The notes under the pieces: model-generated
The model's input: only the letters and a program-made list of their open reading frames with translations
The model's database searches: none
Told to the model about the DNA's origin: nothing
Made by a program: the position numbers and the translations under genes
From: a virus
Length of the DNA: 27,687 bases
IMG/VR virus record: IMGVR_UViG_3300044997_000467
Span: 1 to 27,687 of that record
Reading direction: 5' to 3' (one strand)
Part shown: positions 5,709 through 27,687 of the stretch, piece by piece
Layout: each line of letters starts with the position of its first letter
How positions within the stretch are numbered: the stretch's first letter is position 1

Positions 5709-5766
5709 GATCCCCCCGTGTCCCTTGGCCGCATATGCGCGCCACCACCGGCAAGCAACCGAAGAA

Positions 5767-5780
5767 CATACCGCGGTATG
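5767..5780. repeat. 14-base perfect palindrome CATACCGCGGTATG
   Basis: The two 7-base arms meet without a spacer and each contains the GCGGTAT iteron (one per strand). A zero-spacer palindrome of this kind is suited to binding a dimeric DNA-binding protein. It lies about 60 bases upstream of the RuvC-like start on the coding strand, a position where binding would affect late transcription or replication initiation. Confidence 0.7.
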
Positions 5781-5870
5781 AACAACACCCCAAAAACGAT
5801 CGCGGTATACGAAAAGGCGCGGCTAATCGACCATTACCAGATATACCATCATTACCGGAATCAACATTAG

Positions 5871-5901
5871 ACTATAAGGGAAGAAAAAAAAAACCCGGCA
5901 A
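5871..5901 (-). promoter_or_regulatory. Candidate late promoter (weak)
   Basis: On the minus strand a -10-like TATAGT lies at 5876-5871 (five of six to consensus) with TTGCCG at 5901-5896 as a possible -35. The spacer is 19 bases and consists largely of a T10 tract, which is longer than ideal. It would drive the RuvC-terminase-head operon. AT-rich DNA produces such matches by chance, so this is only a candidate. Confidence 0.25.
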
Positions 5902-6000
5902 ATCGCCCGCCGCAGCCCGAAAACGACGTTCCGCCCGTTTATCGACGCCCTTTTTTTCTTTTTTTCTAGGTTCACAAAAATTTGTTTTGCGAAAAGTTAA

Positions 6001-6015
6001 GCGGTATAGCGGTAT
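6001..6015. repeat. Tandem GCGGTAT iteron pair
   Basis: GCGGTAT occurs at 6001-6007 and again at 6009-6015, an 8-base period. Two further direct copies lie at 5773 and 5802 in the same intergenic region. The same heptamer appears only sporadically elsewhere (for example near 20130). Confidence 0.6.
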
Positions 6016-6021
6016 GGAAGC

Positions 6022-6062
6022 AAAAAGCCGCGACCGTCCAGCGTTTTAGACGATCGCGGCTT
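6022..6062 (-). terminator. Rho-independent terminator after the VirE-family gene
   Basis: Read on the minus strand, AAGCCGCGA (6062-6054) pairs with TCGCGGCTT (6033-6025) as a 9-bp GC-rich stem. It is extended by a 4-bp inner stem (6049-6052 with 6035-6038) after one mismatch, with a 10-base loop, and the descending arm runs into a T5 tract (6026-6022). It begins about 20 bases after the VirE-family stop and closes the minus-strand replication operon. No T-tract exists on the other side, so it acts in one direction. Confidence 0.85.
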
Positions 6063-6082
6063 GTGGTAGCTACCAGGTAGTA

Positions 6083-7631: not shown

Positions 7632-9104
7632 TTATTGCGATAGAAGCCTAATGTTTGCCGCGCTCAGCGACGGCGCCGGGCCGCGATCGCCCCAGCGCCA
7701 AGCGCGCCCCCAGTCTTGCGGGCTTGGGCGCGCCGGTATGCTCGCAGTAACGGCCGCGGATACGGCCGCCAACACGGCGATTAGGTCGGCGGCCGCGCCG
7801 CGCGGTAACAAATCGGGCGCCTTCGCCAGTTCCCTAGCCGCCTTTCGGGCCGTTTCGGGCAGTCTGGAAATCGGGCCGCGCGACGTTTCGCCGAGCCGCG
7901 CAAGCCGGGCGCGCTGCGCCGACGTCGCCGGCAATTGCCGATCCGCGCCGACGTAGCGAACGGGCCGGACGTCCAGCCCGATCGCCAGCGCGGCGGCGAC
8001 AAGCTCGGCCGCCCATTCATCCGCCGCTTGCGCGGCTACCGCTAGCGCTTCCAGCCGCAATAGCGCGGCCGCTTCCGGCCCGGCCGTCTTGGCGGCTTCC
8101 TCGGCGGCTTCGGCTTCGAGCGCGCCCAGGGCTTCCGGCGTCGCGAAAGCGTGCAGCGGCGCCAAGCCGAGCGGATCGAACACGATCGCCGACGCCTTGC
8201 CGCACGCCGTCCGCAGCACGCGGCCGACTTCCTGCACAAGCCCTAGCGGTGACCTCGAACGGCGCAACGCCGCCCAACGGAGCCAGGGCAGGTCGACGCC
8301 TTCAGTAAGCAATTGGACGTGTACGATCGCTCGAATTTCGCCCAGCCGCGCACGTTCGAGCGCCGCGGCAACGTCGGCGCGCGGCATCGAGCCGGAAACC
8401 GCTTCGGCCGGCCAGCCGCGGGCGCTTAGGTACGCGGCGTAATCGAGCGCGTCGGCGATCGTTTCGGCCGATACGATCCCGGCGCCTTCGGGCCGCTCGG
8501 CATCGAGCATTGCGACGATCGCCGAGTCTACGCCAACTTCGTCGCCGCGCCAAGGCACGACGCGCGCCGGAACGATCACGCCGTCGCCGAGCGCGTCAGG
8601 CAAGCCATAGCGATACAGAAGCGGCGAATCCCAGCCGTCGATCGGTGCGCCCGTCCGCCAAGGCGTCGCCGTAAAGCCGAGCCGAGCGCCAGGCGCCAAG
8701 GCTTCGGCCGCCGCCGCAACGAACGGGCCGGATAGCCCGCGATGCACCTCGTCGGCGATCCAAAGCGCCGGCGCCGATCGGCCGGATTCGCGACGCTCGG
8801 CGACGTAGCGCGGAAACGACGGAACGCAAACGATCGTGCAGCGCCGGCCGATTTGGTGCCGCCGGCCGTAGAATTCGCCGACGTCGGCGCCGGAATCGGC
8901 CAACGTCGCGGACAATTGCGATACCAGCGCTTCGGTTGGGCAGGTGATCACGACCTCGCCGCGCGTTTGCCGCACGATTTCGGCGATTAGGCGCGACTTA
9001 CCGGCGCCCGTGCAAGCTTGGATTACGCGCCGATCGCCCGCCTGGCGCTGCACGACTTCCAGCGCCAGCGGTAGCGCTTCGGCTTGCCACCGCCGCAAAC
9101 TCAA
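7632..9104 (-). CDS. Superfamily 2 DEAD/DEAH-type DNA helicase
   Basis: A 490-residue protein with an ordered SF2 motif set. These are a Q-like LRRWQAEAL (3-11), Walker A ACTGAGKS (30-37), motif Ia TCPTEAL, Walker B IADEVHR (DEVH at 118-121), motif III FTATPWR (144-150), motif V-like LLTEGVDLPW and motif VI QEVGRVLR. The core resembles RecQ/UvsW/RAD3-like or type III restriction-type helicases (ResIII family). The last 150 residues are an Ala-rich extension of unknown role. It presumably unwinds or remodels branched DNA during replication and recombination. The start is TTG at 9104, overlapping the SSB stop (TTGA), so it is coupled to SSB. Which polarity or substrate it uses cannot be told. 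Confidence 0.9.
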   Translation of the reverse strand: MSLRRWQAEALPLALEVVQRQAGDRRVIQACTGAGKSRLIAEIVRQTRGEVVITCPTEALVSQLSATLADSGADVGEFYGRRHQIGRRCTIVCVPSFPRYVAERRESGRSAPALWIADEVHRGLSGPFVAAAAEALAPGARLGFTATPWRTGAPIDGWDSPLLYRYGLPDALGDGVIVPARVVPWRGDEVGVDSAIVAMLDAERPEGAGIVSAETIADALDYAAYLSARGWPAEAVSGSMPRADVAAALERARLGEIRAIVHVQLLTEGVDLPWLRWAALRRSRSPLGLVQEVGRVLRTACGKASAIVFDPLGLAPLHAFATPEALGALEAEAAEEAAKTAGPEAAALLRLEALAVAAQAADEWAAELVAAALAIGLDVRPVRYVGADRQLPATSAQRARLARLGETSRGPISRLPETARKAARELAKAPDLLPRGAAADLIAVLAAVSAAVTASIPARPSPQDWGRAWRWGDRGPAPSLSAANIRLLSQ

Positions 9105-9487
9105 AACGGAATCCCCGAGCCGTCATCGTAAGCGGCAGCGGCCGGCGCGGAATCGCTCGAATCGCTAGATTCGGGCGCCCTTCCGACGAAACGCACGCTA
9201 TCGCAAGCCATTTCGATCTTGGCGCCGCGCGTTCCGTCGCGCTTGTCAAATTCGACCAATTCGATTCGGCCGTCACAAATAACCGTGCGCCCCTTGTCTC
9301 CAAACCGTTCGAGCGCCTGAACAGTCTTGCCGAATGCGGCGCAGTCAAACCACGTCGTTGTGTCCACCCAGGCGCCGTCGATCTTCTTTCGGCCCGAAAC
9401 CGCAACCGAAAACCGAGCAACCGTTCCGGCCGCGTTTACTTGCGGTTTGCGGCCCATATTTCCACAAATAACGGTCTTGCTAAACAT
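9101..9487 (-). CDS. ssb: Single-stranded DNA-binding protein
   Basis: A 128-residue SSB with an N-terminal OB-fold (residues about 1-105). The N-terminus MFSKTVICGNMGRKP, the AVSGRKKIDG loop and TTWFDCAAFGK are family hallmarks. A short Ser/Ala-rich linker leads to the acidic tip DDGSGIPF, the classic C-terminal peptide by which SSB recruits partner enzymes. It binds ssDNA at the fork and probably recruits the adjacent helicase and the RecT-like annealing protein. Its ATG at 9487 overlaps the primase-like gene stop by 8 bases and has a five-G ribosome-binding site (9492-9496) inside that gene. Confidence 0.95.
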   Translation of the reverse strand: MFSKTVICGNMGRKPQVNAAGTVARFSVAVSGRKKIDGAWVDTTTWFDCAAFGKTVQALERFGDKGRTVICDGRIELVEFDKRDGTRGAKIEMACDSVRFVGRAPESSDSSDSAPAAAAYDDGSGIPF

Positions 9488-10034
9488 CGTTCCCCCTCGT
9501 TTCACGGTTTGCAAACGCCGCGATTTCGTCGGCGACCAGCTGCAGCGCGGCGATATTTCCAGAGCGCACCCAATGCAACGCCGACGGGAAAAAATCGATC
9601 GCGTCGTTGGGATCCAGCCCGCACGCCGCCGCGGCACGCTGCGCGCACGTCCAGGCTGCGCGGGCTTCCGCGCCGCGCCTTGCTTCGCGATCCGATTTGC
9701 TCAGCCGCCGAGCCGCCGGCCGCGCCGAAACGCCGACGGGCAAGCCGGCCCACAAATGCCGCGCCGCGCCTTCGAGCCGCCGCCAATCCGCCGAACCAAG
9801 CGGCCGGCGGCGGCCGATCACAACGAAAGAAAGCAAATTTAGGGACGATCCGCCCGCCTGGCACGCGTAGCACGTCCAAACCGGCCCGCTTGTCCGAACC
9901 GAGCCGAACCGGCCCAACCGATTGTCTGCGCGGCTCGGCGTATGTCCGCAAGCCGGGCACGTCGCCAGACCGATCCGCCCGGCCAAATCGACAACGTCGC
10001 GGCGTGCGACTTCGTCGGCCCAAGCTGCGCCCAT
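9480..10034 (-). CDS. Zinc-ribbon primase-like protein (CHC2-type zinc finger, no TOPRIM)
   Basis: A 184-residue protein. The N-terminus resembles the DnaG-type zinc domain: VARRDVVDLAGRIGL, then CPAC (Cys26, Cys29) and CYAC (Cys55, Cys58), then GGSSLNLLSFV. These residues would bind zinc and recognise the primer start site. No TOPRIM catalytic domain follows; the remaining 110 residues are helical and Arg/Ala-rich. It may therefore be a separate zinc subunit working with the VirE-family protein. It is the first gene of the minus-strand replication operon. Its leader, GGGGGAACAA before ATG, is identical to that of the divergent RecT-like gene. A non-primase zinc-binding regulator is possible. 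Confidence 0.7.
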   Translation of the reverse strand: MGAAWADEVARRDVVDLAGRIGLATCPACGHTPSRADNRLGRFGSVRTSGPVWTCYACQAGGSSLNLLSFVVIGRRRPLGSADWRRLEGAARHLWAGLPVGVSARPAARRLSKSDREARRGAEARAAWTCAQRAAAACGLDPNDAIDFFPSALHWVRSGNIAALQLVADEIAAFANRETRGNDV

Positions 10035-10159
10035 TTGTTCCCCCGTTGCGAAACGCTAACGCTAGGCCGCCCCACATTTGGTCAAGGAAACGTCAAGCCG
10101 ACAAGGCGGTCACAAATTGACCAGTGCGGCGGATACGTGCACAAACGAAGGGGGAACAA
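10035..10159. promoter_or_regulatory. Divergent promoter region between replication and recombination operons
   Basis: The 125 bases separate genes transcribed in opposite directions. TTGACCA-type -35 boxes point outward as an inverted repeat: TGGTCAA at 10079-10085 for the minus strand and TTGACCA at 10117-10123 for the plus strand. The matching -10 hexamers are weak (TAGCGT at 10064-10059 with a 15-base spacer; CACAAA at 10140-10145 with a 17-base spacer). The symmetric arms could also be operator half-sites. Both genes carry the same GGGGGAACAA leader before ATG. Confidence 0.45.
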
Positions 10160-10843
10160 ATGCGCCAGCCAATCGATTACGGTTTGCTACTAACGCTCGC
10201 CGAAACGGCTCATAAATCCGGACAATTTAAGAAATTCGACGGGAAGGAAAAAATTTTTACCGTAATGGCGCGCGGCGCCGAAATTGGGCTTGATCCTTTC
10301 TTGTCGCTCGAAGTTTTCAATTCGATCCACAACGGGCCGCCGACGATCGGAAAGCGCGGGATCTCGATCCTGCTACACCGCGCCGGGTATCGGCTCGACT
10401 TCGCCGAGCAAACCGACGAAGCCGTAACCGTGATCGCGACGTACCCGGGAAAGGCGGCGTATACAGCGCGATACACGCTCGCCGAAGCCCGCCGCGCCGG
10501 CTACACCAAAAACGCGAAATATCAGACTGAACCCCAAGAAATGCTTTTGGCGCGCTGCCTTTCGAGGATCGCCACCAATTATGCGGCTGAAATTCTTGGC
10601 GGTGTACCGCTGGCGCTGGAAGACGACGGCGCCGCCGCGCCAGCGCCCGCCGCGCCGCTTGTGATCGAGCGCGTCGAAGCGGCCGAGCAAGCCGCAACGG
10701 AAACAGAAACGCAGCGCGCGATTTTCTACCTAGAGCGAACCGGCCGCCTTAGCGCGGCGCGCGACAATTGGGGATCGCCCGAAGGCTGGACGGCTGAGAC
10801 GCTAAATGAGATTCGCGCATGGATTGCAAAGGGGGATGCGTGA
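10160..10843 (+). CDS. RecT-like single-strand annealing protein
   Basis: A 227-residue protein. A RecT-family pattern spans residues about 1-160: helices leading to MARGAEIGLDPFLSLEVFNS, then GPPTIGKRGISILLHRAGY, a beta-hairpin region (VTVIATYPG), and MLLARCLSRIATNYAAEILGG. The last 70 residues are an acidic, Ala-rich tail, possibly for SSB contact. Such proteins anneal complementary ssDNA at broken ends. The next gene is a RecB/Cas4-type nuclease, so the two form an exonuclease-annealase pair like RecE/RecT. The ATG has a five-G ribosome-binding site at 10150-10154. The specific RecT subfamily is uncertain. Confidence 0.75.
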   Translation: MRQPIDYGLLLTLAETAHKSGQFKKFDGKEKIFTVMARGAEIGLDPFLSLEVFNSIHNGPPTIGKRGISILLHRAGYRLDFAEQTDEAVTVIATYPGKAAYTARYTLAEARRAGYTKNAKYQTEPQEMLLARCLSRIATNYAAEILGGVPLALEDDGAAAPAPAAPLVIERVEAAEQAATETETQRAIFYLERTGRLSAARDNWGSPEGWTAETLNEIRAWIAKGDA

Positions 10844-11895
10844 ACCTGGTACGGCCGACAAACCTAGCGCTTGCTGCCGACGCGTGCCCGCACGCCGTTT
10901 CGCTGAGCGAGCAGGGCACACCGCGCGATCGGCGGATCTTTGCCGCTGGTCAAGCGGCGCATACCTATTTAGAGGCGCTGTATTCGGGCGAGGATCCCAA
11001 CGCAGCGGCCGCCGAATTGGGGGCGACGGGCCGAAGCGGGCCGGACGCCGAGCCGGCGCTACCCCTCGACGCGATCGCGGAAGGCGTTGAGCTTGCGCGC
11101 CGCTGGGCAGATCGGAACGATCCGCCGCCGGCTGGCGCGCTTGTCGAATTCGCAATGAGCGACGGAACCCTAACTACGCGCGTCGACGTCGGTTGGATGG
11201 AAGCCGACGCCGACAGCCGAACGATCCTGGTTATTCGCGATTATAAAACCTCTTGGCGCGACGACGAATCCCGCGTTTTGCGGTTGCAGGCGCGCGTCCA
11301 GGTGCTGGCCGGGCTTGCGACGTACCCGGCTGCCGACGGCGTGCGAACGGAGATCGCAAATCTGAGGATCGGCGCCGTATTCGCCGCGACGATTTACCGC
11401 GACGATCCGCGGCTCGAAGGCTGGCGCGAATTCCTGCACGCCGCGGCTGCTCGAATTGTGCACGGGCCGCGCACGCCGAGCCCTGGAATCGGTTGCCTAT
11501 CTTGCGCCTATTCGCCAGCGTGCGACGCCGCCCAGGCAGCCGCCGTCGGCACGGGCGGCGACGCGATCGCCCGTTGGGCTGCGGCCAAGGGGATCGCCGA
11601 CGTCGCGGAAGTCGCCGCGCGCGAAGCGACGGCCGACGGGCCGATCGACGGCGTCGGTTTCCATGTGCACGAATCGCGCCAGGCGTCGCCGGATGCGCCT
11701 GCAATCCTCGCTGACGCGCTAGGCTGGCCAGAAGCCGCGCCGTTGCTCGAACGGCTCGCTTTGGGCGCTAGTAACATCGACGCCGCCGCGAAGACGGTTC
11801 ACGGCGGCAAGGCGGGAAAAGAAGCCCGCGAAGAACTGATCGCCCGCTGCGTCAGCTACAAAGCCGGCAAACGATGGGGATTACTTCGCGGGTAG
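10840..11895 (+). CDS. PD-(D/E)XK nuclease with Cas4/AddB-type Fe-S cysteines
   Basis: A 351-residue protein. The nuclease core shows HTYLEAL (His41), VDVGW (Asp117), IRDYKTSW (Asp134, Lys136) and QARVQVL (Gln150, Gln154): the His-Asp-DxK-Gln order of RecB/Cas4 nucleases. Four cysteines, Cys16 and CLSCAYSPAC (Cys219, 222, 228), match the iron-sulfur layout of Cas4 and AddB. The last 120 residues are an extra helical domain of unknown role. It probably resects DNA ends for the upstream RecT-like protein. The start is GTG at 10840, in a GTGA overlap with that gene and behind GGGGG (10831-10835), so the two are translated together. Polarity is not readable. Confidence 0.85.
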   Translation: MNLVRPTNLALAADACPHAVSLSEQGTPRDRRIFAAGQAAHTYLEALYSGEDPNAAAAELGATGRSGPDAEPALPLDAIAEGVELARRWADRNDPPPAGALVEFAMSDGTLTTRVDVGWMEADADSRTILVIRDYKTSWRDDESRVLRLQARVQVLAGLATYPAADGVRTEIANLRIGAVFAATIYRDDPRLEGWREFLHAAAARIVHGPRTPSPGIGCLSCAYSPACDAAQAAAVGTGGDAIARWAAAKGIADVAEVAAREATADGPIDGVGFHVHESRQASPDAPAILADALGWPEAAPLLERLALGASNIDAAAKTVHGGKAGKEAREELIARCVSYKAGKRWGLLRG

Positions 11896-11924
11896 AAAAA
11901 GATCGGCTTTTGTTTCCGCCTCGC

Positions 11925-11953
11925 TTGTTGGCACAATTGGGCCGCCTTATACT
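11925..11953 (+). promoter_or_regulatory. Sigma-70-type promoter for the small-gene cluster
   Basis: TTGTTG (11925-11930) and TATACT (11948-11953, five of six to TATAAT) are separated by exactly 17 bases. It is the best promoter match I found in the window. Transcription would begin near 11960 and give a leader of only about 15 bases ahead of the ATG at 11974. Confidence 0.6.
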
Positions 11954-11973
11954 TGCAGGCACAAGGGGGAAAA

Positions 11974-12168
11974 ATGAACCGCAACCAAATCCGTACCGCT
12001 CGCCGCCTTGCCAAGCTTGCCGACGAGGGCGGCACCATCCAAGCCGATCGCCTTGTCGTCGTCTTCGCCGATCCGCGCGACCATCGCACAATGACGCTCC
12101 GCGAAGCCTGGGCGATCGCGCTTCCGAGCCTGAGCGCCGACAATATCGCCGAAACGCTTTGGGGGTGA
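11974..12168 (+). CDS. Small hypothetical protein (64 aa), first gene of accessory cluster
   Basis: A 64-residue protein beginning MNRNQIRTARRLAKLADEGG. A basic N-terminal helix is followed by a beta-like stretch (QADRLVVVFADP) and a C-terminal helical part (LREAWAIAL). No family is recognised. It lies immediately behind the strong promoter at 11925-11953 and has a ribosome-binding site of five G (11965-11969). The very short leader suggests high early expression. Start chosen by that site; an upstream in-frame non-ATG codon lies inside the promoter and is unlikely. Confidence 0.7.
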   Translation: MNRNQIRTARRLAKLADEGGTIQADRLVVVFADPRDHRTMTLREAWAIALPSLSADNIAETLWG

Positions 12169-12171
12169 ACC

Positions 12172-12351
12172 GTGGATCGTTACTTTTGGATCGGCCTTGC
12201 CGCGCAAACCTTCGTCGGGCTTTGGCTTGCTTGGACGATTTGGATCCTGCCCTGGGAAACGTCGGAAATCCTAGTGCTTCGTCGCGTCGGCTCGGCGCTC
12301 GGATCGACGCTGCGCGATCGTATACGCGCGGCGATTTCGGCGCGGAAATGA
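12172..12351 (+). CDS. Small single-pass membrane protein (59 aa)
   Basis: A 59-residue protein starting at GTG 12172 with GGGGG at 12161-12165. Residues about 4-27 form one hydrophobic Trp-rich transmembrane segment (FWIGLAAQTF, then WLAWTIWIL). The rest is a basic cytoplasmic tail (LRRVGSALGS, then RDRIRAA), so an N-out, C-in orientation follows from the positive-inside rule. It is shorter than most holins and lies far from the lysis genes, in the small accessory cluster, so a role in host membrane modification or superinfection control is possible but unproven. Its stop overlaps the next start (ATGA). Confidence 0.65.
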   Translation: MDRYFWIGLAAQTFVGLWLAWTIWILPWETSEILVLRRVGSALGSTLRDRIRAAISARK

Positions 12352-12554
12352 ACGCCGCTGTACCGTCGGCCGAACAGGTCGGCGAATTTGTGCGCGTTTC
12401 CGGGCCGATTACAACGCGCGAATATCAGCGCGCGCAAATGATCGGACGGAACGCGGCGCTGTACGACCTGCAGCGCGCCGAAGCGGCCGGGCTTGTGTCG
12501 CGCCATTGGAGTCGCGCGCTATCTTGCACGGTTTGGGCGAGCGTGCGCCCGTGA
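12348..12554 (+). CDS. Small winged-helix-like protein (68 aa)
   Basis: A 68-residue protein. The middle (SGPITTREYQRA, then GRNAALYDLQRAEAAGLVSRHW) has the spacing of a helix-turn-helix with wing: an ITTREY entry helix, a recognition-like helix and a terminal aromatic strand. It is probably a small DNA-binding regulator, inferred from the pattern only. The ATG overlaps the stop of the membrane-protein gene and its own stop overlaps the next GTG, so three genes are read as a coupled string. Confidence 0.6.
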   Translation: MNAAVPSAEQVGEFVRVSGPITTREYQRAQMIGRNAALYDLQRAEAAGLVSRHWSRALSCTVWASVRP

Positions 12555-12766
12555 TCAACGCAAAGCCCGGCGGGCGGTGTCCGCATTGCGGCGCTAGGCT
12601 TTCGCTACGCGGCGCAATTCCGCCAAGCGGCCCGGCGATCGTTGAATGCGAGCGCTGGCCGTTTCTGCCGCTGCCAGATTTGATCCAAAAGCCGGAAGGC
12701 TATCCGGTGCATGCTTTTTACTGGTTTTTCGACGAAGGGGGGGATCTTGGATCTGCTGGAAATTAG
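12551..12766 (+). CDS. Small protein with a CPHC zinc-knuckle (71 aa)
   Basis: A 71-residue protein starting at GTG 12551 in a GTGA overlap with the preceding stop. RCPHCGARLSLR near the N-terminus is half of a zinc ribbon; a lone further cysteine occurs in VECERW, so a full four-ligand site is not evident. The C-terminal part is aromatic and hydrophobic (AFYWFFDEG). The last codons overlap the next gene by 20 bases in another frame and include that gene's G7 ribosome-binding site. No family is recognised. Confidence 0.6.
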   Translation: MINAKPGGRCPHCGARLSLRGAIPPSGPAIVECERWPFLPLPDLIQKPEGYPVHAFYWFFDEGGDLGSAGN

Positions 12767-13190
12767 ACATCTGGCCGTTTCCGAGCTTAGGCGCGTTGCC
12801 GAATTTGGCGACGGCTATACGGCGCATGATTTGGCGGAAATCATCGATCGGCCGGCCGCCGGCGTTTATGCGACGCTTGCGGGGCTTGTCCGCTCCGGGC
12901 TTGTGCGGCTCGGCGCGGACGGCGTCTATTCGGCCGCCGTCGCCAAGGTGAAGCGGCCGGAAGCGCTCAGCGTAAAGCCTGAGCTTGCCGATTTTACCAC
13001 CGTCGCGCCGACGCTACCGAGCGGGCCGACGCGCTCGGTTTGCTCGATTTCGCCGGACGTGCGAGCCGCGCTAACCGCGATCGGCAAAGCCGAAGCCAGC
13101 GCCGCGCGCGCCGCTGAGCTTTCCGCCGCCTGGACGCTGCACGTTCAAGGCTTGCGCGCCTACCTTGCTGCAATTGGGGGGAATCCATGA
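12747..13190 (+). CDS. Winged-helix DNA-binding protein (147 aa)
   Basis: A 147-residue protein starting at TTG 12747, directly after G7 (12737-12743) and ATC, the same GGGGGATCTTG arrangement as the RuvC-like gene. Residues about 14-60 read as a winged helix: SELRRVAEFGDGYTAHDLAEI, with RPAAGVYATLAGLVRSGLV as recognition helix and wing, then GADGVYSAAV. A Pro/Thr/Ser linker (about 65-95) leads to an Ala-rich C-terminal helix. It is probably a transcriptional regulator of this cluster. Its stop overlaps the next ATG (ATGA). The target is unknown. Confidence 0.65.
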   Translation: MDLLEIRHLAVSELRRVAEFGDGYTAHDLAEIIDRPAAGVYATLAGLVRSGLVRLGADGVYSAAVAKVKRPEALSVKPELADFTTVAPTLPSGPTRSVCSISPDVRAALTAIGKAEASAARAAELSAAWTLHVQGLRAYLAAIGGNP

Positions 13191-13564
13191 TTTACAGAAA
13201 CCGGGCGCAAGCCCTGCTGGATGACGCAACGCCTAGCCCCTGGACGATCGGCCGGATGGATTACGCCGGGCAAATGGTTGGGATCAGCGCGCCGTTTGGC
13301 GATTCGTCGCTTTCCCTTAGCTCTTGGCGCGATCTTGCGATCGTTTACGGAAACGAGGATCAGCCCGAACAAGGTTACAAGCGTGCGACCGGGAACGCCG
13401 CGCTAATCGCGTACGCGCCCGAATTGGCGGAAACCGTGATCGCGCTTTGGGATTCGCTGCCGAATCGGCTGCGCGACATTGCGGCGGAGTGCAGCGGCGC
13501 CGATTACGATCTGCTTTCCGACGCCGCCGATTTGTTGGAGCGGCTTAGCGGGGCCGAACCGTGA
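13187..13564 (+). CDS. Conserved hypothetical protein (ATPxPW / NAALIAYAPELAE motif)
   Basis: A 125-residue acidic protein. Its N-terminal DDATPSPWTIG and central NAALIAYAPELAE belong to a pattern that I recognise as widespread in phage and prophage hypothetical proteins (ATPGPW followed by N-x-x-LIA-x-APxL), for which I know no function. The remainder is helical (LPNRLRDIA, DAADLLERL). It has a six-G ribosome-binding site (13176-13181) and an ATGA overlap with the preceding gene. Its own stop overlaps the GTG of the next gene. Reading-frame conservation and the motif make it clearly real. Confidence 0.75.
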   Translation: MIYRNRAQALLDDATPSPWTIGRMDYAGQMVGISAPFGDSSLSLSSWRDLAIVYGNEDQPEQGYKRATGNAALIAYAPELAETVIALWDSLPNRLRDIAAECSGADYDLLSDAADLLERLSGAEP

Positions 13565-13833
13565 TCCCGGCCATTCAGCTTCCAGCCGACGCGCTGCACG
13601 AAATCGAGATCCATAGCGCGCGCGCCGTCGCCGTCGGAACGCCAGGGATCGCCGTCGTTGTGCGCGATCTGGCCTATACGGGCCGAATTCTTTACGCTCA
13701 GCTTGAAGCGGCGTTAGCCGCCGTCGCCGAAGCGCCGCGCGGCAATTGCGGCCGCGCTTTCGTCGATCCCGATCACGTCTTGCGCGTAGCCCTAGCCGCC
13801 CGTAGCGAGGTGCAGCCGTGCGCCGATACTTGA
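13561..13833 (+). CDS. Small hypothetical protein (90 aa)
   Basis: A 90-residue protein starting at GTG 13561 in a GTGA overlap. The N-terminal half has beta-strand character (AVAVGTPGIAVVVRDLAYTG) followed by an Ala-rich helix (LEAALAAVAEAP). A C-terminal HVLRVALAARSEV stretch is helical. No motif or family is recognised. The frame is supported by the chain of overlapping starts and stops on both sides: it overlaps the next gene by 16 bases. Confidence 0.55.
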   Translation: MIPAIQLPADALHEIEIHSARAVAVGTPGIAVVVRDLAYTGRILYAQLEAALAAVAEAPRGNCGRAFVDPDHVLRVALAARSEVQPCADT

Positions 13834-14267
13834 TCGCGGAAGACGGAATCACCATTCTTCGGGTCGCCGAGCCGGGCGAATCGGCCTCAGGCCGTCGCGT
13901 GATTCGATCCGCTCGGCCGCTTCGGACGGGCGCCCGGCTTTGCCGCGTGCCGGCCGGCGCCGTCGATCGCGGCGATCTTTCCGCTTCGCCCGATTTGCTA
14001 GCCGCGCTCATCGACGCCGCGGGCGGGCTGAGCCTTCGCGCTTGGCTCGCCGACGCGCTTGCTGCGGGCGACGTCGATCGCTTCGCGCGACAAGCCGCCG
14101 CGCGCGGATCGTCGGAATCGGCGGGCGCTCGGCGAACCGCCGTAACGATCGCGCTAACCGCGGAGCGATTCGCTCAATTCCAAGCCGCCCGCTTGGCGCA
14201 CGGCGTACCGGTTGCGGCAATGGTTCGCGAAGCTGTTAGATCCGCGCTATGGCCGAACATTGCCTAA
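13818..14267 (+). CDS. Ribbon-helix-helix-type protein (149 aa)
   Basis: A 149-residue protein starting at GTG 13818. The N-terminal 95 residues are Arg/Ala-rich without a recognised domain. Residues about 107-145 fit a ribbon-helix-helix (Arc/CopG-like) module: a short strand RRTAVTIALT, helix AERFAQFQAARLAHG and helix PVAAMVREAVRSAL. Such modules dimerise and bind operators in the major groove, so autoregulation of this cluster is likely. No toxin gene is adjacent, which argues against a classical toxin-antitoxin pair. It overlaps the following HNH gene by 19 bases. Confidence 0.6.
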   Translation: MRRYLIAEDGITILRVAEPGESASGRRVIRSARPLRTGARLCRVPAGAVDRGDLSASPDLLAALIDAAGGLSLRAWLADALAAGDVDRFARQAAARGSSESAGARRTAVTIALTAERFAQFQAARLAHGVPVAAMVREAVRSALWPNIA

Positions 14268-14665
14268 ATTGCGCCGAGCCGGCGACGGTACGGCACCATG
14301 TCATCCCGCGCAGTCGCGGCGGCCGCGGAACCGTGCCGCTCTGCTCAGTTTGTCACGCGTTGGCGCATCGATCGAGCCTTAGCGACCTGCGCGCCGATTC
14401 CCATCGTGAGACAACCGCTAGCGGCAAGCATGGCGGCGGCTTGCCGCCATACGGATACGCCGTCGTTTCAGGCCGGCTCGTCGCGGACGCGTCCGAGCAA
14501 GCCGCCGTAAATGCGATCCTTGGCTTGCGTCTAGACGGCAAGTCATATGCCGAAATCGCCGCGGCCCTAACCGAGCGAAAATTAAAGCCGCGCGGCTCAG
14601 CCTGGAACGTATCGGCGATCCGGAAGATCGTTATTCGCTATTTCGGCCCGACAGCTTCCGAATAG
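14249..14665 (+). CDS. HNH endonuclease-like domain fused to a serine-recombinase DNA-binding fragment
   Basis: A 138-residue protein with two recognisable parts. Residues 5-41 are an HNH zinc-finger nuclease-like unit: CLNC (Cys5, Cys8), HHVIPRSRGG (His16, His17) and LCSVCHALAH (Cys32, Cys35, His36, His40). Residues about 63-130 match the entry of the recombinase domain of large serine recombinases: GGLPPYGYAVV, LVADASEQAAV, GKSYAEIAAALTERKL and WNVSAIRKIVIR. The resolvase catalytic domain is absent. The recombinase piece would supply DNA binding and the HNH part cleavage. It is the last gene of the plus block and runs 35 bases into the 3' end of the opposing holin gene. A homing-type endonuclease is the main alternative reading. 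Confidence 0.7.
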   Translation: MAEHCLNCAEPATVRHHVIPRSRGGRGTVPLCSVCHALAHRSSLSDLRADSHRETTASGKHGGGLPPYGYAVVSGRLVADASEQAAVNAILGLRLDGKSYAEIAAALTERKLKPRGSAWNVSAIRKIVIRYFGPTASE

Positions 14666-14918
14666 CCGCGCCAACGTCGCGCGCCGATTCGCGAATCATA
14701 TAGCCAAGAAACGCGATCGCGACGGCCGCGGGCGATCCAGAAAATAGCTGCACGGGATCAGCTTCGCCGCCGAGCGCGAGGGGCGCGGAATCCTGAGCCG
14801 ACGCCGCAATGCAGGCCGCGGCAAGCACGGGCGCCCATACGAGGATCAACGCCGGCCGCCGGCGAAGGTAGCCCGTCGCGACAAAAGCGAAAAAAACAAA
14901 CCAGGCTAGATCAACCAT
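14631..14918 (-). CDS. Holin-like membrane protein
   Basis: A 95-residue protein with three hydrophobic segments: residues about 4-18 (AWFVFFAFVATGYL), 22-40 (ALILVWAPVLAAACIAA) and 59-76 (weaker, AVAIAFLGYM). A charged basic tail follows (RESARDVGAAIRKLSG). Size, three-segment topology and position beside the endolysin fit a holin that permeabilises the inner membrane to time lysis. The ATG overlaps the endolysin stop by 8 bases. It is the last gene of the late operon and its 3' end overlaps the convergent HNH gene by 35 bases with no terminator between. Confidence 0.65.
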   Translation of the reverse strand: MVDLAWFVFFAFVATGYLRRRPALILVWAPVLAAACIAASAQDSAPLALGGEADPVQLFSGSPAAVAIAFLGYMIRESARDVGAAIRKLSGRNSE

Positions 14919-15360
14919 TTGGCACGCTCCAAGGGCGGGCGCCTGCTTCAGTAATCGCCAGCGTTTGCCGGCGTCCAGGCCGGCCGAGCGCGTAGGAAAC
15001 GTGAACCCAAGCGGCGCCGCGCAACCGTTCCACGATCGCTTGATCGAACGGAAGCCCGGCGCGAACGAGCGTCGTTACGATGTCTTCGGGCTGCATTCCG
15101 AGAACGCTCAGATCGGCCGCTTCGCCGCGCATATGCTGGGACGTCTTCGAGCCGCCGACGGCTGCATTTACGGCGGGCGAACGGTAGCCGCTGGAAATAC
15201 GGATCGGCTTGCCGAGCGCGCGCCGAAGGGGATCGAGGATCGCGGCGCAAAGCGCGACGATCGCGGCCTGCTCGGCTTCGCCCGGCGTGTTGTTTTCCGG
15301 GCGGCTTGTGGTCGTCATTTCTGCCCAGGTAAAGAATTCCCCAGGACGATCGCAAATCAT
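14911..15360 (-). CDS. Endolysin, peptidase M15 family
   Basis: A 149-residue murein peptidase of the M15 (D-Ala-D-Ala carboxypeptidase-like) type. RISSGYRSPAVNAAVGGS (54-71) is the family core and SQHMRGEAADL (74-84) supplies zinc ligands His76 and Asp83. WVHVS (118-122) supplies the third ligand, His120. It has no signal peptide, so it needs a holin, and one follows at once. There is no separate cell-wall-binding domain, as usual in Gram-negative phages. The start is ATG 15360: GGGGG lies five bases upstream and the codon overlaps the previous stop (ATGA). An in-frame ATG at 15372 lies upstream of that site. Confidence 0.9.
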   Translation of the reverse strand: MICDRPGEFFTWAEMTTTSRPENNTPGEAEQAAIVALCAAILDPLRRALGKPIRISSGYRSPAVNAAVGGSKTSQHMRGEAADLSVLGMQPEDIVTTLVRAGLPFDQAIVERLRGAAWVHVSYALGRPGRRQTLAITEAGARPWSVPNG

Positions 15361-15659
15361 TCGCGCCCCCATTTGCGGCGCCAGGCGCGCGGCTTGCGTT
15401 GCGACGTCACAACCAACCGCACGACGATCGCCGTTGCGACGCTTAGATATTCCTCGTCTTCGGAGCTAAGCCCGGGCACTTCGTCGAGAACGTCGCGCGC
15501 TAGCTCGATTACGGCTGCCTCAGAATCAGACGACCAAACGCCGCCCGGCGTCGCGTCGATCACGCTAGGGATATGCGCCGCCAGGTCGCCGAGCGCGTCG
15601 GCGATCCAGTCAAGCCGCGCCGGCAAAACCCCGCGTAAAACGGTCACCAGGAATGGCAC
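15357..15659 (-). CDS. Small hypothetical protein upstream of the endolysin (100 aa)
   Basis: A 100-residue protein starting at GTG 15659 with five G at 15664-15668. The N-terminus MPFLVTVLRGVLPARL is mildly hydrophobic and the middle is acidic (SEAAVIELARDVLDEVPG, SEDEEYLSV). The C-terminus is strongly basic (RKPRAWRRKWGRE). There is no lipobox and no clear transmembrane helix, so it cannot be called a spanin. Its position between the last tail gene and the endolysin suggests a tail-tip or lysis-associated role, which is inference. The stop overlaps the endolysin start (ATGA). Confidence 0.6.
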   Translation of the reverse strand: MPFLVTVLRGVLPARLDWIADALGDLAAHIPSVIDATPGGVWSSDSEAAVIELARDVLDEVPGLSSEDEEYLSVATAIVVRLVVTSQRKPRAWRRKWGRE

Positions 15660-15671
15660 GGCGCCCCCTTA

Positions 15672-17288
15672 TTATTCGAAGATCGTTACCCTAATTAGAT
15701 CGCTTCGGCCACCGTCGCGATCGATGCCAGTAACGACGCCGACGCGCTCCGTTAGCCCGTCCGCCGCGCTTGTTACCGCGACGCAGTCGCCGATCGAAAG
15801 CTCGGCGGGAGCGCCGACGCCATATTTAGCGCCGTCGACGATCATCGAGACTTCGAGCCGATCGACGGCCAGCAGACGCAACCGATTACGGCCGACAATT
15901 TCAGCCGTCGCAGCGTCGTAAATCCAAGTTAATTCTAGCGAATCAAGCCGGAAGCCGTGCCGATCTAGCGTTTGGATCCCCCAGTCATAGCGAGCCGCCG
16001 TAAGGGTTCGCCCGGCTCGGTATTCACCAGTTTTTTTGTTCGGCGCCCATTTTAGCGCGATCGCCGTGCGGATCGAATCGGGATCCGCGCTCGAACGGTA
16101 TTCGGGCGCGTTGACTACCGAAATCCCTGCGCCGTCGACAAGCGTAAACCTTGGCCGCATTTCCGCCGGATCCGTCTCAATATACCGCAGCGAAGCGCCG
16201 CGCGAAGACGGAACCAGCGCGACGGGTAGGCACGGCAAAACGTGCGTTTGCAAGATATCCCAAGCCGACGCGACTTCGTCGATCACGCCGTCAAAGCCGA
16301 ACGCGCGCAGCCGCTCGGCCGTCGAGTCCACCGATCCCCAGTCAACCGTAAGCCCGCGAACGCGCGCCAAAAGCCAGCCCAGCACGGATCCGGCGTCGTT
16401 TGGCAAGCCGGACGCCGAGCCGTCGAAAGCTGCGTACCATTCTTGTTCGGCCGCTTCGGGATGCGTTGTCGCCCAGCGGTGTTCAAGATCAACGGCGCCG
16501 GAAATATCGCAGTAAGCGATCGGCTGGCCGGCGTTGTCGTATCCGTCGATGACCTCGAACGATTCCCGCGCGCGCCGTTCGACGTGCGAATGCGCCGGCC
16601 CGCTAAGGGTAAGGGTTCCGCCGCCCAGGTGGTGCCCGGCGACCATTACCCAAGGCGGATCAAAGCTTACGGCTAGCCCGCGAACGGCTAGGGTTCCATC
16701 GCGACCGGGCTTGCCGAAAACGACGGGATAAATTCGCCCCTCGGCGCGCTCGGCATAAGCCGTAAACGTCGATTCGCTCGGCGCGTTGATCGCGGCGAAG
16801 ACGTCGGCCCAAGCTTGCGAGCCAAGAAATATTGACCATGGGGAATTGTAGATCCGCCAGGCGGCTTCGCGTTCAGCCTCCCATTGCGTTTCGCGTCGGC
16901 TGCGCACGTCCAGCGTCCGATCCACGTCGATACGTCGCACGATCAAATTATCGATCGTCGCCGGAACGGTTGATCCGTCAAACGACGGAACGTCGCCGAT
17001 CGTGATTTCCGTAGCTTCCCCAGCGCGCGCCGCTCGAAATTCCGACGGAAAGCCCGAAGCAATGACGCGATCGCCGTCGGAAACCTCGACTAAGCACGTA
17101 GCGTAATGCCGGCCGGCCGCAAGCTTCGCCGACGTGTTGCCGAGATGAACCGCAAACGAAACCCGGCGCGGCCGATAATCAGCCGTCGCGCCGTTTAATT
17201 CGGCCGAATCGAAGATCCGAACGGGAACATCGTCGAACGTCCACCCCTCGCCGTCCCATTCGATCGAAACCGTATATCCGGCGCGCAT
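15672..17288 (-). CDS. Phage tail tip / baseplate-like protein (538 aa)
   Basis: A 538-residue, beta-rich protein with aromatic and Asp/Gly-rich strands and a compact beta-barrel-like C-terminus (GDCVAVTSAADGLTERVGVVTG). It contains an AERAEGRIYPVVFGKPGRDG stretch (about 177-196) that looks conserved. The position, two genes after the tape measure and before the lysis genes, is that of distal tail or baseplate hub components which connect the tube to host-recognition fibres. No cell-wall hydrolase motif is evident. The ATG at 17288 overlaps the preceding stop (ATGA). The precise hub or fibre assignment is uncertain. Confidence 0.6.
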   Translation of the reverse strand: MRAGYTVSIEWDGEGWTFDDVPVRIFDSAELNGATADYRPRRVSFAVHLGNTSAKLAAGRHYATCLVEVSDGDRVIASGFPSEFRAARAGEATEITIGDVPSFDGSTVPATIDNLIVRRIDVDRTLDVRSRRETQWEAEREAAWRIYNSPWSIFLGSQAWADVFAAINAPSESTFTAYAERAEGRIYPVVFGKPGRDGTLAVRGLAVSFDPPWVMVAGHHLGGGTLTLSGPAHSHVERRARESFEVIDGYDNAGQPIAYCDISGAVDLEHRWATTHPEAAEQEWYAAFDGSASGLPNDAGSVLGWLLARVRGLTVDWGSVDSTAERLRAFGFDGVIDEVASAWDILQTHVLPCLPVALVPSSRGASLRYIETDPAEMRPRFTLVDGAGISVVNAPEYRSSADPDSIRTAIALKWAPNKKTGEYRAGRTLTAARYDWGIQTLDRHGFRLDSLELTWIYDAATAEIVGRNRLRLLAVDRLEVSMIVDGAKYGVGAPAELSIGDCVAVTSAADGLTERVGVVTGIDRDGGRSDLIRVTIFE

Positions 17289-26888: not shown

Positions 26889-27687
26889 TCAGGTAGCGTT
26901 AGAACGGATCAAGAATTGCGGGAACAGATCCGCGCTCAGCTTGCCGACGCCAACGAAGGCGTTTGCGTCGATCCGCTTGGTGGCGGACTGACCATCCGTC
27001 TTGCGGGTAACCACGATCCCCCATTCGGGAACGAAGACGGGCGCGGAATCCGAAAGATCGCCCATTTGCGCCGTGGAACCGACAGCGTAAGCGAGCGCGC
27101 CAGGGCTGTAAGCGAAGCCGTAGTAATCGCCGCCCGAAAGCGCGACGTCGGCCGAGCCGTAAACGTCGATCCCCAGGAAGGTGAACCGGAAACCGGCTTC
27201 CGCCTGCATACGCTGGTACAACTCGAAAGATTCCGGGTATTGAAGCGCGGTTTCCGAGCGAATCGAATTACGCAAATGCGTAATCTGCTCAGGGTGAAGG
27301 ATCGAAACGGCGCGACCATCGAACCCGGCCGAAGCCTCAAAATCCCCGCGCAGCGCGATCCAGTCGTTGACGTCCAACGTAGCGGCGGGATCGGCCGAAT
27401 TCGTCGCAAACGTCGCGCCCGTCGTGCAAACGAGCGAACGAAGCGTAGCAAGATACGAATCGACGAAAGTAGCGGCGATATCGTCGATCTTCAACAGCGC
27501 GTCGTCTTGGATCGCGTGTTGGAACGATTCGCTAAACGCCAAGCCGTGCCGGCCGATCGTGATATCGTCGGTTCCGACGGTGAGCGGCGAAGCGGCGATC
27601 GCCTCAGTCTCAGAGCCGAGCGAAGCCATAGCCTTCGACCAGCCCAGACCGGTAACCCGACGCGTGCGGACGGTATCCGAGCCGGAA
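26889..27687 (-). CDS. Major capsid protein, C-terminal part (gene continues at the window start)
   Basis: This is the 3' part of the 317-residue capsid gene whose first 112 codons lie at 336-1. Bases 27507-27687 repeat the left end, so the frame is open at the right edge. The C-terminal half is beta-rich (FRFTFLGIDVYGSADVAL, PVFVPEWGIVVTRKTDGQ) with a helical spine-like stretch (HPEQITHLRNSIRS), consistent with an HK97-type capsid subunit but without a decisive motif. The gene ends with a double stop, TGATAG, just before the 240-residue gene. Confidence 0.8.
   Translation of the reverse strand, partial: SGSDTVRTRRVTGLGWSKAMASLGSETEAIAASPLTVGTDDITIGRHGLAFSESFQHAIQDDALLKIDDIAATFVDSYLATLRSLVCTTGATFATNSADPAATLDVNDWIALRGDFEASAGFDGRAVSILHPEQITHLRNSIRSETALQYPESFELYQRMQAEAGFRFTFLGIDVYGSADVALSGGDYYGFAYSPGALAYAVGSTAQMGDLSDSAPVFVPEWGIVVTRKTDGQSATKRIDANAFVGVGKLSADLFPQFLIRSNAT
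27507..27687. repeat. Right copy of 181-base terminal direct repeat
   Basis: This stretch equals bases 1-181 except for T at 27634 (C at 128). It shows that the contig overlaps itself and that the genome can be drawn as a circle of about 27,506 bases. The substitution changes capsid codon 70 from Arg to Lys. Confidence 0.95.

Follow-up and report, generated by a model that had tools for sequence, protein, structure and literature searches.

The window, by which we mean the whole stretch of DNA that was analyzed, spans all 27,687 bases of one IMG/VR virus record and has a G+C content of 63.5%. Its plus strand bears an operon (10160-14665), the distal part of which is a string of nine small genes, here named g0 to g8. 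The likely first gene of this operon encodes a RecT-like single-strand annealing protein (10160..10843; phrog_4171, expectation value (E) 7.9e-24 using the longer start 10124) and is overlapped by the gene of a PD-(D/E)XK exonuclease (10819..11895; PF12705, E 1.2e-8), which in turn is separated from g0 by a gap of 78 nucleotides. An earlier reading of this DNA—the sequence-only reading—had described the small genes as a stand-alone island. As the cluster lies directly behind the RecT and exonuclease genes and continues into an HNH-like gene, it is better regarded as the downstream end of the operon that carries the recombination genes. The earlier reading thus picked out a real feature and named most of its parts sensibly, but it cut this feature off from the recombination operon and miscounted: the seven short genes that it listed are indeed small plus-strand open reading frames (ORFs), but eight of them lie in 11974-14267, and a ninth, g8, extends to 14665.

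Reading along the plus strand, g0 (11974..12168, 64 residues), for which no relative was found, is followed by g1 (12172..12351, 59 residues), likely a single-span membrane protein with a basic C-terminal segment, by g2 (12348..12554, 68 residues), a putative and unproven DNA-binding protein, and by g3 (12551..12766, 71 residues), a probable small zinc protein. Then come g4 (12747..13190, 147 residues), which appears to carry a winged-helix DNA-binding domain and uses a TTG start behind GAAGGGGGGG, g5 (13187..13564, 125 residues), which falls into the phage family phrog_1273 (E 2.2e-5; function unknown), and g6 (13561..13833, 90 residues), again with no relative found. The last two genes are g7 (13818..14267, 149 residues), a predicted single-chain tandem ribbon-helix-helix protein and candidate autoregulator, and g8 (14249..14665, 138 residues), which combines an HNH-like zinc domain with a “Recombinase” domain. 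The junctions from g0 to g8 measure +3, -4, -4, -20, -4, -4, -16, and -19 nucleotides, so that, as stated earlier, every gene overlaps the next from the membrane-protein gene on. This overlap is ordinary rather than unusual for phage early regions: in three annotated actinophage RecT regions, 19/21, 15/17, and 19/25 junctions overlap.

Some of these ORFs might be spurious, above all g6, g0, or g2, as these three have no relatives. A codon-use test against five core genes places the coding frame of g6—and those of g3 and g8—other than best of six. However, the frames of g0 and g2 do score best of six, as do those of g1, g4 (computed from its longer start 12711), g5, and g7. The tight packing, the plausible start contexts, and a relative that is packed alike with other genes likewise argue for real genes, and we regard spurious ORFs as very improbable.

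This relative, IMGVR_UViG_3300042197_002668 (G001; 28,814 bases), is the single one found and was reached via an alignment of RecT proteins. Its terminase is 73% identical to that of the window, its helicase 61%, its exonuclease 59% (60% in a second comparison), and its RecT 46%. The end and start of the G001 contig overlap, with r4 being read at both, which suggests that G001 is probably circular. Behind its exonuclease gene, a gap of 72 nucleotides precedes eleven overlapping small genes (r1-r11), the last of which, r11, is HNH-like, and then a convergent peptidase gene. Comparing all 99 pairs of g0-g8 and r1-r11 with 200 shuffles per pair reveals five homolog pairs whose scores no shuffle reached (0/200 each): g8-r11 (z 43.4), g7-r10 (27.6), g3-r9 (17.5), g1-r2 (15.8), and g4-r8 (9.1). 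In G001, the homolog of g4 precedes that of g3. A further pair, g7-r5, likewise exceeds all 200 shuffles (z 5.5), with a match that covers part of the protein. For g0, g2, g5, and g6, no recognizable counterpart exists among r1-r11; g2 was rejected as a homolog of r1 (z 1.4), and the g5 family was not found in G001. In g1, g3, g4, g7, and g8, conservation is lowest at codon position 3, with 28-40% identity versus 52-63% at positions 1 and 2, and in the exonuclease it is lowest there as well; it follows that these genes are real and under purifying selection. Layout and conservation in the relative are direct observations.

Beyond G001, relatives are scarce. Neither single-protein scans of viral contigs (exonuclease, g5, and terminase) nor blastn of 9100-14700 and tblastn of the exonuclease and g5 against 50,697 phage records yielded a close relative, for collections that may omit records very near the window. 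Alignment-based scans returned replication relatives, RecT relatives, G001, and more distant terminase relatives; with the exonuclease alignment, G001 was the only hit among viral contigs, and genome contigs gave nothing. tblastn with the proteins of both phages over 185 loci matched only the G001 loci, except that r11 also matched one other locus (L167; 38% over 52 residues, E 0.004). When five loci, including three new ones, were searched, g4 matched in L188 (E 0.003) and r3 in L189 (E 0.002)—weak matches that we judge to be chance because the database is tiny. Profiles of g7, g8, and the exonuclease matched 0/12 related virus records, which, lacking a positive control, shows little, and the more distant loci at hand bear no small-gene cluster.

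Among the five kept proteins, g7 was modeled. Its model, built on two sequences (predicted local distance difference test (pLDDT) 71.5), reaches a pLDDT of about 90 at the C-terminus and shows two beta-alpha-alpha units: a strand at 49-56 with helices at 58-68 and 73-83, and a strand at 107-113 with helices at 115-128 and 132-144. The N-terminal part, outside residues 49-149, is of low model confidence. In a Foldseek search with this model, chains of the F-plasmid relaxosome occupy the top 11 of 29 rows, with weak E values of 0.05-0.8. Aligned by VIA-align, residues 49-149 match these chains with Z 9.2-10.1 over 91-98 residues, and an engineered single-chain Arc with Z 7.4. We infer that the matched chains are TraY, a relaxosome component whose single chain holds a whole dimer fold (PMC12117103); one of the matched relaxosome entries is without TraM. 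The two-unit single-chain dimer fold would then be common to TraY and the predicted model of g7, whereas g7, about 18% identical to F-plasmid TraY, lacks a relaxosome context and carries an extra N-terminal part. At the sequence level, residues 109-144 match RHH_1 with E 0.044, weaker than the cut-off, and searching PDB structures with the g7 sequence returned noise only and no TraY. The model predicts a single-chain tandem ribbon-helix-helix protein—a fuller form of the ribbon-helix-helix protein named in the sequence-only reading.

The second conserved element of note is g8, which matches PF07508 (E 3.7e-6) and PF01844 (E 1.3e-3). Its N-terminal half matches an IscB-type HNH (E 1e-4); in the C-terminal half, the match is to the recombinase domain of a large serine recombinase, YokA (E 0.0015). 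g8 lacks a resolvase catalytic domain with an active serine, the Recombinase domain alone being matched. The g8 family is represented by 26 members, from the window, G001, and 24 other viral contigs (L192-L215), five of which match little beyond the HNH-like part. In an alignment of ten members, C5, C8, H16, H17, C32, C35, H36, and H40 are invariant in all rows, whereas the HNH asparagine between GG and LC is absent from 10/10; against IscB-type HNH, the alignment shows a four-residue gap at this motif asparagine. The family can be described as a CXXC/HH/CXXCH zinc domain without the HNH asparagine segment that, in most members, is joined to the DNA-binding domain of a serine recombinase. No family name came up in searches, none of which was aimed at the literature.

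As an alternative, g3, g4, g7, and g8 might form a DNA-processing module acting with RecT and the exonuclease in recombination, replication start, or packaging. In this view, g7 would behave as TraY does, which bends DNA, and g8 would be a nuclease or DNA-binding partner. The four genes are retained together behind the RecT-exonuclease pair in both phages, g7 resembles chains of the F-plasmid relaxosome, where TraY is a single-chain ribbon-helix-helix protein (PMC12117103), and g8 joins HNH-like and recombinase-like parts. On the other side, no relaxase was recognized among the proteins scanned, g8 lacks both the HNH asparagine and a serine-recombinase catalytic domain, and, judged by eye in 12 of the 24 other contigs, no g7-like gene lies directly upstream of the g8 homologs. 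Taken together, we consider such a module rather unlikely.

The remaining small proteins fit the names given to them earlier to varying degrees. The membrane protein, g1, is borderline by hydropathy (1.52, and 1.89 for its G001 homolog, which is 51% identical over 41 residues; L090, 8038-8223); g1 is likely a one-span membrane protein. The “zinc-knuckle” does not hold for g3, whose sequence fails CX2CX4HX4C and instead keeps C10, C13, C33, and H54 invariant, in a pattern CX2C-X19-C-X20-H with different spacing in the relative; its model is low-confidence beta, for which the fold search gave no usable match. Of the “winged-helix proteins”, g4 is backed by a match to Pfam TrmB (E 8.6e-4 with start 12711), under the curated cut-off, whereas g2, with a PHROG transcription regulator at E 0.084 as its best match, is not.

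Virion or lysis genes are a further, very improbable, explanation of the cluster. g7 does match a head protease in PHROG (E 0.15), and lysis genes lie just downstream on the opposite strand. However, this match is at noise level, and the recognized head, tail, and lysis genes are all on the minus strand. None of the nine proteins g0-g8 has a convincing virion match, in agreement with the earlier description of a nonstructural accessory region. More generally, the genome is arranged in two divergent blocks, whose minus strand bears genes for a helicase, a single-strand binding protein, a VapE-type primase, a Holliday junction resolvase, terminase, portal, capsid, tail, and lysis, labeled in part from profile or homology matches and in part by reading the translations. 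At 5709-6082, 374 nucleotides between the resolvase-like and primase genes lack a convincing minus-strand gene. A 95-residue ORF (14631-14918, minus strand) converges on and overlaps the end of g8 and adjoins an endolysin-type peptidase gene (14911-15372; phrog_894); it possibly encodes a membrane lysis protein. Scans of the window gave no Rfam match and no tRNA. While IMG/VR classes the record as linear, positions 1-181 and 27507-27687 form a terminal direct overlap of 181 bases, 180 of them identical (one mismatch), which makes a complete, circular map of about 27,506 bases the most likely arrangement. The terminase finds genomic relatives in metagenome-assembled genomes (MAGs) of Gemmatimonadota (51%, the best), Myxococcales (41%), and Pseudomonadota (41%), the first being a possible hint at the host phylum. 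This 51% terminase sits in a Gemmatimonadota MAG chromosome (CP070815.1, L187), and the cluster of small genes is absent from its neighborhood.

The 78-nucleotide gap itself contains candidate control elements. A promoter-like site (TTGTTG-17-TATACT; 11925..11953, plus strand) has the second-best weight-matrix score in the whole window on both strands. Two copies of a direct repeat, CTTGNNGGCACAANNGGG (11924-11941 and 11952-11969, plus strand), form a candidate operator; these paired 18-mers agree in 14/18 positions, and only 1/400 shuffles of the gap reaches this value. A sigma-54-like half site, TTGGCAC, also lies inside the gap and was dropped because, judged by eye, no fitting second half accompanies it. 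The sequence around the g0 start, AGGGGGAAAAATG, resembles GGGGGAACAAATG, the start context that both divergent operons share at their heads, at 10032-10044 (minus strand) and at 10150-10162 (plus strand)—the latter being the start context of RecT; both copies fall within a 16-nucleotide inverted repeat. In G001, an extended -10-like element, GTCGCTGTGGTAWAC, precedes RecT in one copy and r1 in a second, in L090 upstream of 5998 and 7845, the starts of the G001 plus-strand operon. The pattern was derived from these two sites; elsewhere in 20,145 bases of G001 (L173), there is no copy at <=3 mismatches, and in the window it was not found at the corresponding places. Its presence at both G001 places supports a second transcription start behind the exonuclease gene in G001. 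In the window, the promoter-like site and the g0 start context are the evidence, and the cluster probably has its own promoter.

A promoter-like site of their own, small size, overlap, and DNA-binding proteins within the operon would also befit genes of host takeover or anti-defence, whose products inhibit immunity or essential host proteins early, with g7 or g4—both candidate DNA-binding autorepressors—in the role of an Aca-like autorepressor. The high turnover between the relatives (g0, g2, g5, and g6 versus r1 and r3-r7) points in the same direction, as do two precedents: 45/193 tested genes were toxic in a mycobacteriophage screen (PMC7474061), and the lambda exo-xis region has been tied to inhibition of host DNA replication (PMC10834534). 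As small phage genes frequently inhibit growth, a host effect of at least one gene would be plausible, and individual genes might conceivably serve in anti-defence, superinfection, or toxicity. As an account of the whole cluster, however, we hold this explanation to be unlikely. A PADLOC scan of the nine proteins, with a library of defence rather than anti-defence proteins, gave nothing above noise; no anti-CRISPR or anti-restriction fold, for which a structure-based check had been proposed, was seen among the matches of the two modeled proteins (g7 and g3); and the five kept genes resemble regulators or DNA-processing proteins. The roles in host takeover, superinfection control, or anti-defence put forward by the sequence-only reading were guesses that go beyond this evidence. 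More doubtful still is an elaborate version, an autoregulated anti-host island in which a TraY-like g7 would repress the operon promoter, the exchanged genes (g0, g2, g5, and g6 or r1 and r3-r7) would disable host defences or division, and a silenced g8 chimera would shield target sites of phage or host.

We favor, with some reservation, a reading in which the small genes make up the distal, accessory portion of the phage's recombination operon, laid out like the lambda exo-xis region. Several points weigh against it. A strict consensus promoter scan of 9500-16500 returned 0 sites; the “strong promoter” claimed earlier is better described as a promoter-like site. G001 does not clearly preserve the paired repeat and shares only GGCACA near the ribosome site. 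The g7 model rests on two sequences at the modest pLDDT given above, and no sequence-level match of g7 to known ribbon-helix-helix proteins passes the cut-off. Finally, lambda exo-xis and the window share no protein family by PHROG.

Building on the observed layout, its conservation, and the predicted g7 fold, we infer timing, binding, repression, and every host effect as follows. Early transcription would begin at two places, upstream of RecT and near position 11960, and the overlapping starts would couple translation. g7 would bind the repeats around the -10 box and, thereby, limit its own operon, while g4 could act as a second DNA-binding regulator, perhaps also feeding back on the gap promoter. 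g1 would be placed in the inner membrane, and g0, g2, g5, and g6 might change fast and adjust host physiology or the development of the phage. g8 could either contribute to recombination or bind DNA that it does not cut.

What had been a vague “possible takeover island” can thereby be defined as an early accessory operon. Two of its parts are conserved and open to testing: g7, the predicted single-chain ribbon-helix-helix regulator, and g8, the HNH-recombinase chimera that lacks the HNH asparagine. The distinction between kept core and exchanged genes might indicate where to seek host-directed functions first in this lineage, which has few database relatives.

Small overlapping ORFs beside recombination genes are a normal layout of phage early regions, as in lambda and actinophages. 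In lambda, the exo-xis region (orf60a, orf63, orf61, ea22, and ea8.5) consists of small, partly overlapping early genes behind bet-exo in one operon and is described as dispensable for replication (PMC10834534). Both in lambda and in the window, a string of small genes lies directly downstream of the recombination exonuclease. The window differs in bearing its own promoter-like site behind the exonuclease gene, and no integrase was recognized among the window proteins examined. An assignment of g5 as Ea22-like was rejected, as the PHROG families differ; the two give the impression of sharing a motif. With no protein in common, this is a likeness of layout and not membership. In the actinophages Corynebacterium phage Bran, Gordonia phage KappaFarmDelta, and Mycobacterium phage Cambiare, a RecT that is 31-40% identical likewise lies amid overlapping small genes. 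No homologs of g0-g8 were found in these three loci, which hold many unknown genes upstream of RecT too, and a small membrane protein is annotated in two of them.

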